Shown in pieces: positions 22,823-32,232 of a DNA stretch of 64,000 nucleotides; within the stretch, counting starts at the first letter, position 1; every line of letters begins with the position of its first letter. The position numbers and the translations under genes are program-made. The notes beneath the pieces are model-generated. The model was not told the DNA's origin. It was given only the letters and a program-made list of their open reading frames with translations, and made no database searches. This DNA is from Bdellovibrio sp. KM01 (lineage in GTDB: Bacteria > Bdellovibrionota > Bdellovibrionia > Bdellovibrionales > Bdellovibrionaceae), in NCBI RefSeq assembly GCF_013752535.1, contig NZ_CP058348.1:2356001-2420000 (forward strand), given 5' to 3'.

Positions 22823-23389
22823 ATGCAAAAAAATATTGTTGGGTATTTGTTTACCCTGTTCAGCTTGTTTTTACTTATGGGATGTTCTGATGCAGATCCC
22901 AAGGTTTCATTTTTGCGTCCGATGGACACTTTTGAATTTAAACCAACAAATTCAGTTGTTACCTCAACACTTACGACAATTTCACTGAAAGCTGAATGTT
23001 CTCGCTTTATCAACAACGTCGACCTTTCGTTCGATGGCGGCACGACGTGGTTTAATTCCTCGACGTATGATGCGTCTTACGTGATTTGTTCGACAGATGG
23101 CGAATACAAAATCACTCTTTCAAACAGCAAACCGCCGATGAGCACGATGACGATCAATAACGGCGACAGCTTCACCGTGAAGTTTCGCGCAACATCCCGG
23201 TCGGGAAATCAAATCGTGAAGGATGTGAACATCCGCTTTGTGCCTCCTGCGCAAATCAAACAAGCCATCTTGGCGGGGGCAAGTGTTCAGACAGCTACCG
23301 GCCTAGTTTTACGAGGCAGAATCCTTTCGCACAAACAAGACACCGCTTCCGGTGGTGGCTACAAAATCTGGGGAAGGGTTGCTGAATGA
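22823..23389 (+). CDS. lipoprotein upstream of the fibre-like protein
   Basis: 188 residues with a lipoprotein signal ending FLLMGC. The mature part is beta-rich with Ser/Thr and a few cysteines (IKAEC-like, VICS), resembling an immunoglobulin- or Ig-like surface domain with FDGGTTWF, a motif often seen in such domains. No family recognised. The ATG has a weak ribosome binding site. The stop overlaps the start of the 1053-residue fibre-like protein as ATGA, so the two are made together. Confidence 0.75.
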   Translation: MQKNIVGYLFTLFSLFLLMGCSDADPKVSFLRPMDTFEFKPTNSVVTSTLTTISLKAECSRFINNVDLSFDGGTTWFNSSTYDASYVICSTDGEYKITLSNSKPPMSTMTINNGDSFTVKFRATSRSGNQIVKDVNIRFVPPAQIKQAILAGASVQTATGLVLRGRILSHKQDTASGGGYKIWGRVAE

Positions 23390-26300
23390 AAAAGATCCTT
23401 TCTATTTCAGCACTGCTGACTTTGTTGGTAAATACGGCCTTTGCCGTGTCGCCAGGGTCTTTGCTGACTTACGAAGGACTTTTGACCGACTCCACTGGCA
23501 CCCCCATCACGACCACTCAAACTGTGGGTTTTCAAATCCTTTACGGGGCTTGTGTGATGTATTCAGAAACACAATCCGTGGTCCCAGGATCCGCCGGTGA
23601 GTTTTCCGTGATTGTGGGAACAGGGACTCGCACAGATACAACGAACAACACTGCAGACCGCATCTTTGCTTCGGCAGGAAGTGTGAATTGTAATGGCTCT
23701 TCTGCTGCGACGATGACGGGATTTACGACTCGCGCTTTACGAATCACTGTGAACGGTGTGGATTTGACTCCTGATGTGCAAATCGGAAATATCCCCGTTG
23801 CGATCAACTCGCAAAAACTGGCTGATAAAGGGGCTTCTGAATTCCTACAAGTCAACTCCAGCCAAACGACGACTCAGGCGAATCTGGAAAGTATTCTTTC
23901 CCGTTATACGACTTTGAATAGTTTGATATCAGCTTATGCTGGCAACACACTGACTGCACAATCTGCACAGACAGCTGTGAATTTCACCGGCGCATTGGCG
24001 GGAGATGTTTCTGGTACGCAAACCGCGACTTCGGTTGATAAAATCAAAGGTGTTACTGTCGACACAACGGGCCTCGCATCCGGTAAAATTTTAAAATATG
24101 ACGGCAGCAAGTGGGCTGTGGCAGATGATAGCACGGGTACTTCACCTGGCGATGCAACTTACAGCACTAAAGGTCTCGTGCAACCGATGACTGATGCTGC
24201 GACTTCGGGTCTTCTGATTTCTTCCGGTGTCATCAAAGTCAATTATGGTACGGCTGCAAATCAGATTGTGAAACTTGATGCCAGTGCAAAACTTCCAGCG
24301 GTGGATGGTTCACAACTGACAGGCATCCTCCCGTCCGGCGCTACAGCTGGTCAGGTTCTTACTTCAAGCGGATCGACTCTGTCTTGGACGACTCCTTCGA
24401 CTACGGATACAACGAAACTTCCACTTGCAGGTGGAACGATGTCTGGTGCCATTAGTATGGGTGGCAACAACATTACTAATATCGGTTTCATTACGATGAA
24501 CACTGGCGGCCAGTTTCACCTTTCTAATAACTCTGTCGACCCTTCTCTTTCGACTGCCGACAAGGGTAAAGTTTGGTTCAACTCTACCAGCAATCAAATC
24601 AAATACTGGGACGGTTCTGCGACACAAACTGTGGGTGTTGCGGGTGCGGGACTTACAAGTTTGAATGGTCAATCAGGTTCCTCACAATCTTTTGGAACAC
24701 CGACAACAGCAGGAACGAGTTTGTCCTGGTCTTCCTCTTCTAATAGCCACGTTTTAAATATTCCGATGGCCTCTGGAGCTGGCGTTACCGCTGGTTTAAT
24801 TAGCAAAACTGATTACGATGCTTTCAACGCGAAACAAGCTGCCGGAAATTACATTTCATCATTAACGGGAGATGTAACTGCCACGGGCCCGGGTTCTGCT
24901 GCCGTAACTTTGGCAAACAGTGTAGTAACAAGCGCTAAAATTGCAGATGGCACTATCGTTGGCACCGATATGAACTTTACCGGTATGGTAAACGCCACGG
25001 CCGGCATCGTGATCCAAGATTCCACGGGCAAATTCGCCAGCTTTGCTTGCTCGACAGCGGGCCATGTTCCGACTTGGACAGTGACCGGCTGGATTTGCTC
25101 GGCACTGGATCCCGCGAACTTGTCTGCGGTGGTTCCAATCACTAAAGGTGGTACGGGAGCTTCCACTGCGAGTGCTGCCTTCGCTGCCCTATCTCCGATG
25201 ACAGCTAAGGGTGATTTGATTTCTCACTCAGGCTCTGCGCCTTCAGTGTTGAGTGTGGGTACTACGGGCCAGATTCTGACTGCTGATTCTGCACAAACAA
25301 CGGGTTTAAGATGGGCCACTCCAAATTACTTTGCAAATGGTGGTAATACATTCGGCGCTGATGCAACGTTAGGTCTTACAGATGGCTATGGTCTTAACAT
25401 TAAGACAAACAGCGCCACCCGCCTGCATATCAATGCCGCGGGTAACGTGGGAATTGGCTCCACCGCGAACACGAACGTCCCATTGACATTGTCTTCTGCT
25501 CTTGCGGGAGGCACGACTTTGCATATAGTTAATACAAATTCTTCAAGAAACTATTCATTGAACACTGGAAGTTTATCTTCAACTTATGGTGCGAGTGTAT
25601 TTGCTTTAAACGATGAGACCGCTGGAAAAACACGCTTCTTGATCGATACAAATGGTGCTGCGTCTTTAGGTGGAACGATCACAAATATGGTCGCGGCTGC
25701 GGGCCCAGGTGTTCTTACACTAAATGGACCCGGAACAACTACTTCCGACACTGGCGTACTCGAAATGAACAATAATATTGCCACAGTAGCTGCGGGCACT
25801 TCCGGTGGTAAAGTCACATTTAATGCTTACAACAATTTAGGCTCGAAGAACCTGGCAAGCATTCAGGTCCTTACCGATGGCTCCGGCGGTGCCAACGGTT
25901 ATGGCGGTCGTATTATGTTTACGACCAAAGCAGATAACTCCACGTCTCAGGGAATTAACTTCATTATGACGTCGACGGGCAATGTCGGAATCGGCACAGG
26001 CGTTCCAGCCTATCGCCTTGATGTCAGTGGTGATGCAAACTTATCAACAGGATCCGTCTACAGAATCGCTGGAACTCAGATTTGTACTATTTCTGGCTGT
26101 ACTTCTTCCTCTGACAGACGATTAAAAGAGAACATTCAGCCTCTGCAAAATTCTCTCGAAAATATTTTGAAGCTTGATGCAGTTTCTTATAATTACATCG
26201 ACACGGCCCGTTTCGGTGACAAACACCAAGTCGGTCTGATCGCTCAAGATGTTGAAAAGATCTATCCCGAAGTCGTCGTCACGGATGAAAAGACCGGCAT

Positions 26301-26547
26301 GAAAGCTGTGGCTTACGATCACTTAGTGGCTCCTCTGATCGAAGCAGTGAAATCACTCTATTATAAAGTCACGGCTTCTGAAGAAAAAATCACAGAGCAC
26401 GAACGTCGCCTTGCTTCGGTTGAGGAACAAAAGACTTTGGATCGCGCTGAGATTGAAAAACTTAAAGTTGAGAACGAAGCGCTTAGGAAACAAAACGAGA
26501 ACTTACAAAAAGATCTCAATTTGATAAAATCCAAGCTCGGTCTGTAA
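23386..26547 (+). CDS. fibre-like surface protein with C-terminal S74 chaperone domain
   Basis: 1053 residues with signal peptide (MKKILSISALLTLLVNTAFA). The N-terminal domain (GSLLTYEGLLTD, DVQIGNIPVAINSQ) and the long middle consist of Gly/Ser/Thr-rich repeated modules like those of phage tail fibres (LPLAGGTMSGAI, LTGDVTATGPG, ITKGGTGASTAS). From about 905 begins an S74 intramolecular chaperone domain: SDRRLKENI at 909-917 and AQDVEKIYPEVV, and the last ~55 residues form a coiled coil. S74 domains trimerise fibres and often self-cleave. Bdellovibrio makes chimeric trimeric fibres with such C-termini for prey recognition; this is a good candidate of that class. The previous lipoprotein gene overlaps by ATGA. 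Confidence 0.85.
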   Translation: MKKILSISALLTLLVNTAFAVSPGSLLTYEGLLTDSTGTPITTTQTVGFQILYGACVMYSETQSVVPGSAGEFSVIVGTGTRTDTTNNTADRIFASAGSVNCNGSSAATMTGFTTRALRITVNGVDLTPDVQIGNIPVAINSQKLADKGASEFLQVNSSQTTTQANLESILSRYTTLNSLISAYAGNTLTAQSAQTAVNFTGALAGDVSGTQTATSVDKIKGVTVDTTGLASGKILKYDGSKWAVADDSTGTSPGDATYSTKGLVQPMTDAATSGLLISSGVIKVNYGTAANQIVKLDASAKLPAVDGSQLTGILPSGATAGQVLTSSGSTLSWTTPSTTDTTKLPLAGGTMSGAISMGGNNITNIGFITMNTGGQFHLSNNSVDPSLSTADKGKVWFNSTSNQIKYWDGSATQTVGVAGAGLTSLNGQSGSSQSFGTPTTAGTSLSWSSSSNSHVLNIPMASGAGVTAGLISKTDYDAFNAKQAAGNYISSLTGDVTATGPGSAAVTLANSVVTSAKIADGTIVGTDMNFTGMVNATAGIVIQDSTGKFASFACSTAGHVPTWTVTGWICSALDPANLSAVVPITKGGTGASTASAAFAALSPMTAKGDLISHSGSAPSVLSVGTTGQILTADSAQTTGLRWATPNYFANGGNTFGADATLGLTDGYGLNIKTNSATRLHINAAGNVGIGSTANTNVPLTLSSALAGGTTLHIVNTNSSRNYSLNTGSLSSTYGASVFALNDETAGKTRFLIDTNGAASLGGTITNMVAAAGPGVLTLNGPGTTTSDTGVLEMNNNIATVAAGTSGGKVTFNAYNNLGSKNLASIQVLTDGSGGANGYGGRIMFTTKADNSTSQGINFIMTSTGNVGIGTGVPAYRLDVSGDANLSTGSVYRIAGTQICTISGCTSSSDRRLKENIQPLQNSLENILKLDAVSYNYIDTARFGDKHQVGLIAQDVEKIYPEVVVTDEKTGMKAVAYDHLVAPLIEAVKSLYYKVTASEEKITEHERRLASVEEQKTLDRAEIEKLKVENEALRKQNENLQKDLNLIKSKLGL

Positions 26548-26674
26548 AATAATATTGATCTTTGACTCCAAAACATTCCGCTGTTTGTCTCACTATAGTA
26601 TTAACAATTCGCAAAGCTTTTTTATCGTTCTATTCGTGGTAACATTTATTTATTCACGTAAGAGGTACGTAAAA

Positions 26675-27958
26675 ATGAAAAAAACTGCTGCTTTGCTTGT
26701 AGCTTCTTTAGCATGCTCCCCTGCTTACGCCATTTCACTTGGCGACATTCTCAAATCCATTTTTAGCGCCCCTGTAAAACAGGAAAGCCGTACGCCGGCT
26801 AGTTCAGGATCGAACTCTACTGCTAAATCCGAACAACAAAGCCTGGAAGAGTTACGTAAGACATTAGGCTTATTAAAAAAGATCAGCTGTACCTATCATG
26901 GTAACAACTATGGGGTGGATCCTAATGCGGTCTTTGAATTCCCGGATAATCCAGATCAAACAGTCTGTGATCCTTTATCTGGTACAGCTTCAGAATCCCG
27001 CACCAGCGGTCTGGCCGCGAAACTATATATTCGCAGTGAAGAGATGAAAACCGTCAATGGTGTGATGGATTACTATAGTAAAGGGATCCGTTTGGATCAG
27101 AATCTTTACTTTGCTTCGATCAATGTTCCAACTCGCATGTTCACGAAAGGTTTCACGACTGAAGGTGGCGCGACACTGGTTGACGGTTCAGGTAATAAAT
27201 TGATCGAAAACTTCGCGGTGGAGTACAATTCCATCCTTAAATTAGGTGCTGACGATAAAGAAGGTGAATACGAATTAGGTATCATCTCTGACGACGGTGC
27301 CCGCGTGTTCTTTAAAGAAAATGATCAATGGAAAGAATTGATTAACAATGACGGTAACCATCCTTCCCGCTTTGGTTGCACATTCAGAACTCTGACAATG
27401 AAAAAAGACACCGAAGTACCAATCAAGGTTCTTTACTATCAAGGTCCTCGTTATCACATCTCGAATGTGTTGATGTGGAAATACCATAAGGACGTAAAAG
27501 CCTTCCAGAAGTCCTACAAAGACAACTGGGTATGTGGTCAACGTGGCAATGAGCTTTTCTATTCGCCTAAAACTGAAAAACCGACAGCGGTTACGAAGTG
27601 GCTGGAACACACAGGTTGGAAAGTTATTGCTAACGCCAACTTTAAAATGCCAGAGCAAAAAACCAACCCTTGCGTAGAGGAAAAACTGCAGATTACTGAC
27701 CTGATCGCAACGTCTGTTGAAGCTCCACGCGCAACGATTGTTTGGAAAACAAATATCAAATCAACAAGCCAATTGAAGATTTCAAATTTCTTCACGGGTG
27801 AGGTTATTTACACTGAGTTAAACTCAGAGCTGGTAACAAACCATGAAGTTCAATTGGACGGTCTGGTTCGCGGCATCTACTATTTGATCAACGCAATCTC
27901 TGTGGATGAAAAAGGCAATCAAGTGATCAGCTCTCCGGATTACTTGATCACTCCGTAA
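26675..27958 (+). CDS. secreted PA14-like domain protein with FN3-like tail
   Basis: 427 residues with a clear signal peptide (MKKTAALLVASLACSPAYA). Residues about 120-330 resemble a PA14 carbohydrate-binding barrel (YYSKGIRLDQNLYFASINVP, LGIISDDGARVFF, VLYYQGPRYH), and the last ~90 residues look like a fibronectin-III-like domain (LIATSVEAPRATIVWKT). Probably binds a glycan or protein on a surface. ATG 26675 has AGAGG upstream and starts the signal peptide; the frame is open 40 codons further. It follows the fibre gene by 127 bases on the same strand, and a bidirectional terminator follows it. Confidence 0.75.
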   Translation: MKKTAALLVASLACSPAYAISLGDILKSIFSAPVKQESRTPASSGSNSTAKSEQQSLEELRKTLGLLKKISCTYHGNNYGVDPNAVFEFPDNPDQTVCDPLSGTASESRTSGLAAKLYIRSEEMKTVNGVMDYYSKGIRLDQNLYFASINVPTRMFTKGFTTEGGATLVDGSGNKLIENFAVEYNSILKLGADDKEGEYELGIISDDGARVFFKENDQWKELINNDGNHPSRFGCTFRTLTMKKDTEVPIKVLYYQGPRYHISNVLMWKYHKDVKAFQKSYKDNWVCGQRGNELFYSPKTEKPTAVTKWLEHTGWKVIANANFKMPEQKTNPCVEEKLQITDLIATSVEAPRATIVWKTNIKSTSQLKISNFFTGEVIYTELNSELVTNHEVQLDGLVRGIYYLINAISVDEKGNQVISSPDYLITP

Positions 27959-27980: not shown

Positions 27981-28009
27981 AAAAGGGCAGGTTTACCACC
28001 TGCCCTTTT
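27981..28009. terminator. bidirectional terminator between convergent genes
   Basis: AAAAGGGCAGG / CCTGCCCTTTTT stem with a 7-base loop, A-run on the left and T-run on the right; it serves both the PA14-like gene and the hybrid kinase. Confidence 0.92.
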
Positions 28010-31010: not shown

Positions 31011-31170
31011 GGAATGAATTTTATGTGAATTCCCCGTCTCAAATCAAGAAAGCCTGCGAAAACACTATCAGTATTTTAGACGATGTTTCCTAGTTCAACA
31101 CTTGGAACGAATTTACGTGGAGTACGGCTGGCCCCCACCTTGCAATGTCTTATGGTGTGGGGGAATTCAA

Positions 31171-32232
31171 ATGAGAAATCTAAACGTTGCATACATCACA
31201 GCTATTACATCCGGCATGCTACTGAGTGCTTGCGCGCCTGACGTTAATTTCATGACGTCTGAGCAGAACCTTGCTTCCCTCGATGGCGGCGGTGGTGGCG
31301 TAAAGTATCAAAGCGTTTCTCAAAGCTTTGACGTTAAAGCGAACTCCGATATCGACGTGCTTTTCGTCGTCGATAACTCAGGCTCCATGGACGCCGAGCA
31401 AAAGGGTATTTCCGCAAAAATCAATGGGTTCATGAACATCATTAAAGATGCAAACTGGCATGTGGCATTGACCACAACAGATCCAAAAGTGAACACGATT
31501 GCTCCTGATAAATCATCCCGCGCATGGGGTGATGGACAATTCCGCCCGTTTGACTCTGATTCTGGCAGCCTTTTCGTATTGAAAGCGGGCCAAACTTCGC
31601 TGGCGGACGCTCAGAAAATGCTAGCTGCGGCGGTGAATGTAGGTCTTCTAGGTGATGGTAGCGAACGCTCTATCAACGCTTCTTACCGTGCTATCGAGCG
31701 CACTGCAAACACTCCGGCAAATCAAGATTTCTTCCGCGAAAAGTCGAAACTGATTGTGATCGCTATCTCTGACGAAGACGAATGTTCAAACGGCAAATGC
31801 GCTTCTGCTCCCGAGAAAAGCGTTCCCGAGAATCTGGTTAAACTAGTTCGCGAGCGCTTCGGAGCTGAAAAAGTCTTTATGTTTAACTCAATCGTTAAAG
31901 CACCTAGCGACACAGCGTGCACAACGGCGGCGGTTGCTCCAATTTATGAAGCAATGTCTAAACTGACTGGTGGCTTGATTGGTTCGATCTGTGCGACAGA
32001 TTACACTTCGATCTTAAGCAAAATGGGTACGAAAACTGTGGAGCTGGTGAAGTCGATCAATTTGAATTGCCAACCTGTTGATGCTAACGGTGACGGTGAT
32101 ATCGACTTCTCTTTGATCGACAGCAAAGGAAATAAAATTGCAGCCGGTTACTCTATCAGCGGTACGACAGTAAGTTTCGCGGCAAACCTAGAAGAGGGTT
32201 CCTACTCAGCAGCATACAGCTGCGTGCAATAA
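31171..32232 (+). CDS. lipoprotein with von Willebrand factor A domain
   Basis: 353 residues. Lipoprotein signal ends LLSAC. After a Gly-rich spacer (DGGGGG) a vWA domain runs from about 58 to 300 with the metal-binding site DNSGSMD, a threonine (SLADAQKML) and AISDEDECSN. Such domains bind proteins through a divalent metal. The last ~60 residues are beta-rich and contain DANGDGDIDFS, which looks like an EF-hand-type calcium loop. ATG 31171 has GGGGGAATTCAA upstream; earlier ATGs lack one. Followed by a terminator. Confidence 0.85.
   Translation: MRNLNVAYITAITSGMLLSACAPDVNFMTSEQNLASLDGGGGGVKYQSVSQSFDVKANSDIDVLFVVDNSGSMDAEQKGISAKINGFMNIIKDANWHVALTTTDPKVNTIAPDKSSRAWGDGQFRPFDSDSGSLFVLKAGQTSLADAQKMLAAAVNVGLLGDGSERSINASYRAIERTANTPANQDFFREKSKLIVIAISDEDECSNGKCASAPEKSVPENLVKLVRERFGAEKVFMFNSIVKAPSDTACTTAAVAPIYEAMSKLTGGLIGSICATDYTSILSKMGTKTVELVKSINLNCQPVDANGDGDIDFSLIDSKGNKIAAGYSISGTTVSFAANLEEGSYSAAYSCVQ

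Follow-up and report, generated by a model that had tools for sequence, protein, structure and literature searches.

What would keep an adhesive fibre seated on the surface of a Bdellovibrio cell when the fibre itself carries no recognisable membrane anchor? The question is posed by three consecutive genes in a 64,000-nucleotide stretch of Bdellovibrio sp. KM01 (contig NZ_CP058348.1, positions 2,356,001 to 2,420,000 of the forward strand; 'the window'), a genome that consists of a single 3.96-Mb contig. The genes encode a lipoprotein, a long fibre of the mosaic adhesive trimer (MAT) family and a secreted protein with a PA14 domain. The published description of the MATs presumed a surface element that holds their N-terminal domain and did not identify it (PMC10769870). 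Here we report that the three genes make up a conserved unit and that lipoprotein genes recur next to MAT genes elsewhere; it is this unit and this recurrence that are new, the fibre alone belonging to a known family. Our favoured reading, to which we assign a probability of roughly 0.6, is that the trio is a cell-surface adhesion unit in which the lipoprotein is probably the cognate base partner of the fibre.

The fibre can be assigned to the MAT family from its sequence. The NCBIfam profile Bdello_MAT_N (NF053851) matches residues 11-157 with an E value of 3.7e-30 (104.9 bits against a cut-off of 60), in line with the earlier note on this DNA, which had likened the 1053-residue protein to the chimeric fibres of Bdellovibrio; as a new member of the family it would presumably form a trimer. 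The same profile finds 21 MATs in the 3,782,950-bp genome taken here as that of strain HD100, and 21 is also the published count (PMC10769870). At the N-terminus of the window fibre a signal peptide, MKKILSISALLTLLVNTAFA, was read by eye and coincides with an AlphaFold2 helix at residues 3-17; directly behind it follows the MAT N-terminal domain, a beta domain of about 130 residues predicted with a local distance difference test score (pLDDT) above 90 over most of residues 30-130. A structure comparison yielded no confident match to this domain in the PDB (best E 0.037), which agrees with the published account (PMC10769870). Part by part, the fibre matches several distinct KM01 paralogues (residues 2-244 the MAT at locus L039, 190-316 that at L041 with 65% identity, 339-576 those at L042 and L040 with 61%, and 566-647 the S74 MATs with 56-63%), and the protein thus reads as a mosaic of segments common to other MATs. 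Pfam places an S74 domain (E 3.3e-19) where the earlier note had seen it, with the SDRRLK motif starting at residue 909. No Pfam match to a YadA-type C-terminal barrel, the hallmark of type Vc trimeric autotransporters, was obtained in the fibre, whose C-terminus consists of the S74 domain and a coiled coil; no membrane anchor is recognised within the fibre itself.

The grouping of the three genes is not confined to KM01. Among 24 Bdellovibrio genomes, KM01 included, a full-length homologue of the lipoprotein is present in 20 of the 23 others, a single copy in each (21/24 with KM01), and all 20 of these loci retain the four-base ATGA overlap with the MAT gene. The PA14 gene follows the MAT in every locus with enough contig to tell (18/18), generally 76-171 nt downstream; in genome G016, where the frame of the MAT is broken, the distance is 512 nt. 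The flanks of the unit vary, with at least six different upstream neighbours or chromosomal contexts, and the three genomes that have no lipoprotein (G004, G013 and G015) have no PA14 orthologue either. The lipoprotein, MAT and PA14 genes are one conserved unit, always adjacent, from which lipoprotein and PA14 gene are lost together; because the same three genes recur in the same order throughout the genus, the arrangement is more than chance. The earlier note's grouping of the three into one system is borne out to this extent, and the attachment role that it gave the system is left as its own suggestion.

Lipoproteins also adjoin other MATs. We scored a lipoprotein as upstream when its gene lay adjacent to and on the same strand as the MAT gene and encoded a lipobox, a rule passed by 4 of 277 control genes. 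Seven of the 21 HD100 MATs have divergent N-terminal domains, and six of these seven are directly preceded by a lipoprotein gene (Fisher test against the controls, p 2e-9); the grouping of the seven as divergent was made with their neighbours already known, which makes this value optimistic, and with all 21 MATs counted it becomes 1e-5. The six pairs involve Bd3182, Bd2439, Bd2734, Bd2740 and proteins of 1959 and 1661 residues, mostly with overlapping gene ends (names were assigned by way of the lengths published in PMC10769870), and the seventh MAT, which we take to be Bd2872, has a lipoprotein gene nearby on the opposite strand. Beyond Bdellovibrio, the strict rule is passed by 9 of 28 MATs that belong to further genera and families in the same order (p 7e-8), about four further loci qualifying by eye. 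A later set of 12 divergent MATs was picked, from the MAT list alone and regardless of lipoproteins, in the three genomes that lack the unit, and an upstream lipoprotein accompanies 7 of the 12. An initial view of the window lipoprotein as locus-specific, having no full-length paralogue, was dropped when the reading of neighbouring genes brought out that the other MAT-associated lipoproteins share just its tail. Separately, in a relative with a small genome (G025, locus L174) the sole MAT has an 87-residue lipoprotein overlapping its start.

The tail in question lies at the C-terminus. The MAT-adjacent lipoproteins are about 85-280 residues long as called, and two short strand-like repeats close most of them, as in YKVQSSVGNYLSEIEQTTDTGKYKVYSSIQGAIVSQ and VVITGSFGEISEKQVLANGVQVEGAFYE, with LVLRGRILSHKQDTASGGGYKIWGRVAE in the window lipoprotein. 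For the latter, AlphaFold2 predicts an immunoglobulin (Ig)-like domain at residues 37-139 (block means mostly 79-89), which Foldseek places among Ig-like folds (best E 7.6e-5), and assigns a pLDDT below 50 to tail residues 145-179 and 183-185 of the monomer. The tail is nevertheless as conserved as the Ig-like domain (mean column entropy 1.26 over residues 158-188 against 1.31), a pattern that fits a segment in need of a partner on which to fold. A profile of the tails from outside the window locus picks out, from 4738 open reading frames (ORFs), the lipoprotein beside Bd2872, on which it had not been trained (E 0.0025), and weakly the window type (E 0.09-0.8); conversely, a profile of the window-type tail matches the MAT-adjacent lipoprotein of another genus at locus L173 (E 3e-4), and a profile-profile comparison of the two kinds of tail gives 31% probability over 17 columns. 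Taken with position and pattern, these weak matches make homology of the window-type and other tails suggestive rather than firm. The window lipoprotein also has a weak match to PHROG_902, a family of unknown function (E 2.9e-4), yet tblastn finds no phage relative.

Lipoprotein and fibre further appear to be matched by class. Distances between tails correlate with distances between MAT N-terminal domains (Mantel r 0.76, p 1e-4, n=30; in HD100 alone r 0.90, p 0.014); the class of the lipoprotein tracks that of the MAT N-terminal domain. For the main class of MATs the candidate is a short, near-invariant lipoprotein, type C, present as a single copy in 20 of the 21 genus genomes with main-class MATs and absent from all three without them (p 0.002). 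It adjoins main-class MATs in most genomes and is solitary in others, a placement to be expected of a shared partner. In KM01, an 89-residue lipoprotein with a near-invariant tail is encoded 3' of two tandem S74 MATs (L037, 1151-1420 on the minus strand; C1:585150-585419), with one copy per genome in most Bdellovibrio; it may be the partner that main-class MATs have in common.

How the parts might work together can be outlined as follows. The fibre would be exported by Sec, would trimerise with the assistance of its C-terminal S74 domain and would then cut itself before Ser909, freeing the tip. The lipid of the lipoprotein would hold it in the outer membrane, a location chosen in the model because aspartate occupies position +2 in none of 45 MAT-associated lipoprotein sequences (Ser 28, Thr 9, Gly 5, Leu 2, Asn 1), although the +2 sorting rule is unproven in Bdellovibrio. 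Of its two parts, the Ig-like domain would be a spacer and the two-strand tail the element that pairs with the conserved MAT N-terminal domain, such that the base is held and diversification goes on at the C-terminal tip. The PA14 protein would be a dedicated secreted accessory, perhaps glycan-binding. More tentatively, and at slightly less than even odds, the lipoproteins can be generalised to a superfamily of shared tail and diverse length that would provide outer-membrane sockets for the prey-recognition fibres of Bdellovibrio-type predators, one of its own for each divergent MAT class and a single shared one for the main class, with swappable tips and no barrel anchor. The earlier note had put forward the lipoprotein as an anchor on its own judgement; recurrent adjacency to MATs, the match of classes and a conserved tail predicted not to fold by itself now lend this substantial indirect support, while physical contact between the two proteins is what we infer.

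Several observations weigh against this reading. Main-class MATs, 14 of the 21 in HD100, have no lipoprotein directly upstream (0/14) and would need a shared one that works in trans; genome G018 has about 20 MATs, many of them main-class, yet no type C lipoprotein was detected there, absence having been predicted solely for G004, G008 and G017. L039 in KM01, a MAT of the type A class, has no adjoining lipoprotein. The window-type tail resembles the other tails weakly, its best match being the one at L173, and linked genes that duplicate jointly also co-diverge, for which reason the Mantel correlation is no proof of contact. The model, finally, assigns the lipoprotein to neither side of the outer membrane and does not explain how the fibre would cross it.

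The main competitor of a base partner is a lipoprotein that assists export or trimerisation of the fibre and does not anchor it permanently. The precedent is SadB, a small lipoprotein encoded directly upstream of the trimeric adhesin SadA, whose surface display it improves (PMC3953254), and the gene order and tight coupling seen here match that arrangement. The likeness is one of gene order: SadB stays in the inner membrane, as its Asp at +2 predicts, and the lack of this residue in all 45 MAT-associated sequences argues for a different location as far as the rule applies to Bdellovibrio; in addition, the MAT lacks an autotransporter barrel, and its retention must therefore depend on something else. 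We consider a SadB-like role unlikely, at about one chance in four, and the most serious of the alternatives. A further parallel is TpgA, a separate envelope protein described as helping to retain the long trimeric fibre AtaA in Acinetobacter (PMC13082670); as far as that description goes, AtaA differs in having a transmembrane barrel of its own besides TpgA.

Lipoprotein and PA14 protein could also be mere co-transcribed neighbours with separate surface functions, for instance as separate adhesins. In other genera the PA14 family does occur in lipoproteins that stand by themselves, apart from MATs, and Bdellovibrio has other lipobox adhesins such as the MIDAS protein Bd0875, which resembles the proposed window system in being a surface adhesin thought to be lipid-anchored and differs in combining anchor and adhesin in one protein where the window locus uses two genes (PMC11003981). 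Neighbourhood alone, however, hardly explains either the strict co-occurrence of lipoprotein and PA14 gene in 24 genomes or the recurrence of lipoproteins of unrelated length beside MATs in several families, and we hold this explanation to be improbable. Derivation of the fibre from a prophage or tailocin tail-fibre module is suggested by PHROGs tail-fibre families, which match its C-terminal half (best E 2.9e-28). We give it almost no weight, given the apparent Sec signal peptide, the MAT N-terminal domain and the non-phage chromosomal neighbours in many genomes; a phage origin was rejected since tblastn with the lipoprotein found no match in 50,697 phage records and the neighbours are not phage genes.

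The base-partner reading can be set beside a solved structure, that of Bd3182 (PMC10769870; PDB 8ONC/8OJN/8ONB). The HD100 fibre at the syntenic position has 922 residues and the motif SDARLK at 782; both its length and its catalytic serine agree with those published for Bd3182, and on this ground we regard the window fibre as the orthologue of the crystallised protein. The two share the locus, the class of the MAT N-terminal domain and an S74 end with SDxxxK, and the beta-helix-like tip region of the window fibre finds 8ojn by phmmer (E 1.9e-4). The window fibre differs in being 131 residues longer, and its N-terminal domain is 65% identical to that of Bd3182, its tip just 32%, from which it follows that its target probably differs. 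Distant orthologues repeat the contrast, with 55-71% identity to the window fibre in the N-terminal domain against 28-44% in the region before S74, and in G017 the S74 end is entirely gone, the tip having been replaced on an unchanged base. In B. bacteriovorus kdesi (G016, locus L088) the orthologous MAT is split by a frame break just past the S74 motif; other strains have intact copies. The HD100 MATs have been reported to be displayed on the surface and to cleave themselves at the serine of the S74 domain, which in Bd3182 is S782, and of six single deletions, bd3182 among them, only those of bd2734 and bd2740 caused a small predation defect (PMC10769870). The main text of that paper makes no mention of the partner lipoprotein and PA14 genes. 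A literature search that did not extend to preprints, subscription papers or the PMC10769870 supplements turned up no description of the three-gene unit or of the wider lipoprotein pattern, and searches by likely locus tag returned no paper on the partner genes except one use of a bd3180 promoter, which may or may not be related to the locus.

The third gene has a history of its own. Pfam supports the PA14-like character given to its product by the earlier note (E 1.3e-6, 28.7 bits against a cut-off of 24; 25.3 bits for the HD100 orthologue). In other genera the relatives of the PA14 protein are lipoproteins that stand alone, and the stretches inspected there (about 4-12 kb) contain no MAT, an observation that ruled out the expectation of a PA14 protein accompanying MATs throughout the order; the window copy was apparently recruited to the MAT locus in Bdellovibrio. 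These relatives beyond the unit (L106, 8103-9305 on the plus strand; L093; L090) lie in a conserved neighbourhood of their own in several genera. Two other MAT genes of KM01 are followed by secreted, lectin-like Laminin_G_3 proteins (L039, 401-1357, minus strand; L042, 9671-10621, plus strand), and MATs may come with lectin-like accessories, comparable to the PA14 protein behind the window MAT.

Coordinates of the unit are collected in the table. The three ORFs first listed (22823-23389, 23386-26547 and 26555-27958, all on the plus strand) are present as described, as is the overlap of the first two. The start listed for the third, a TTG at 26555, is merely the longest possible one and lies too far upstream; the ATG at 26675 yields a signal peptide, agrees with the starts of orthologues and lies 127 nt clear of the fibre gene. 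Shortly downstream and outside the unit, positions 31102-32232 of the plus strand encode another likely lipoprotein with a weak VWA-like domain (E 0.0047).

Table. Features of the lipoprotein-MAT-PA14 unit, in window positions
Feature	Position	Strand	Remarks
Lipoprotein gene, 188 residues	22823..23389	+	ORF; lipobox Cys21, Ser at +2; predicted Ig-like domain 37-139; C-terminal tail ~145-188
Lipoprotein C-terminal tail, residues 145-188	23255..23386	+	Two-strand repeat ending GLVLRGRIL..GGYKIWGRVAE
ATGA overlap of lipoprotein stop and fibre start	23386..23389	+	Putative translational coupling
MAT fibre gene, 1053 residues	23386..26547	+	Putative signal peptide, then conserved N-terminal domain, shaft of mosaic build, tip, S74 chaperone/protease and coiled coil at the C-terminus
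MAT N-terminal domain (Bdello_MAT_N), residues 11-157	23416..23856	+	Predicted beta-sandwich
S74 domain, residues 909-964, with predicted SDRRLK self-cleavage motif at 909-914	26110..26277	+	Pfam S74
Secreted PA14-domain protein, 427 residues	26675..27958	+	Corrected start; C-terminal Fn3-like region in orthologues
Inverted repeat, T-rich flanks on both sides	27981..28009	.	Likely terminator closing the three-gene unit

The MAT-adjacent lipoproteins are concrete candidates for the missing element that retains the MAT N-terminal domain, the gap left in 2024 (PMC10769870), and HD100 contains the paired lipoproteins of the structurally solved MATs Bd3182, Bd2439, Bd2734 and Bd2740. If the proposed pairing is true, it would explain how the tips of these fibres are exchanged while their base is kept.

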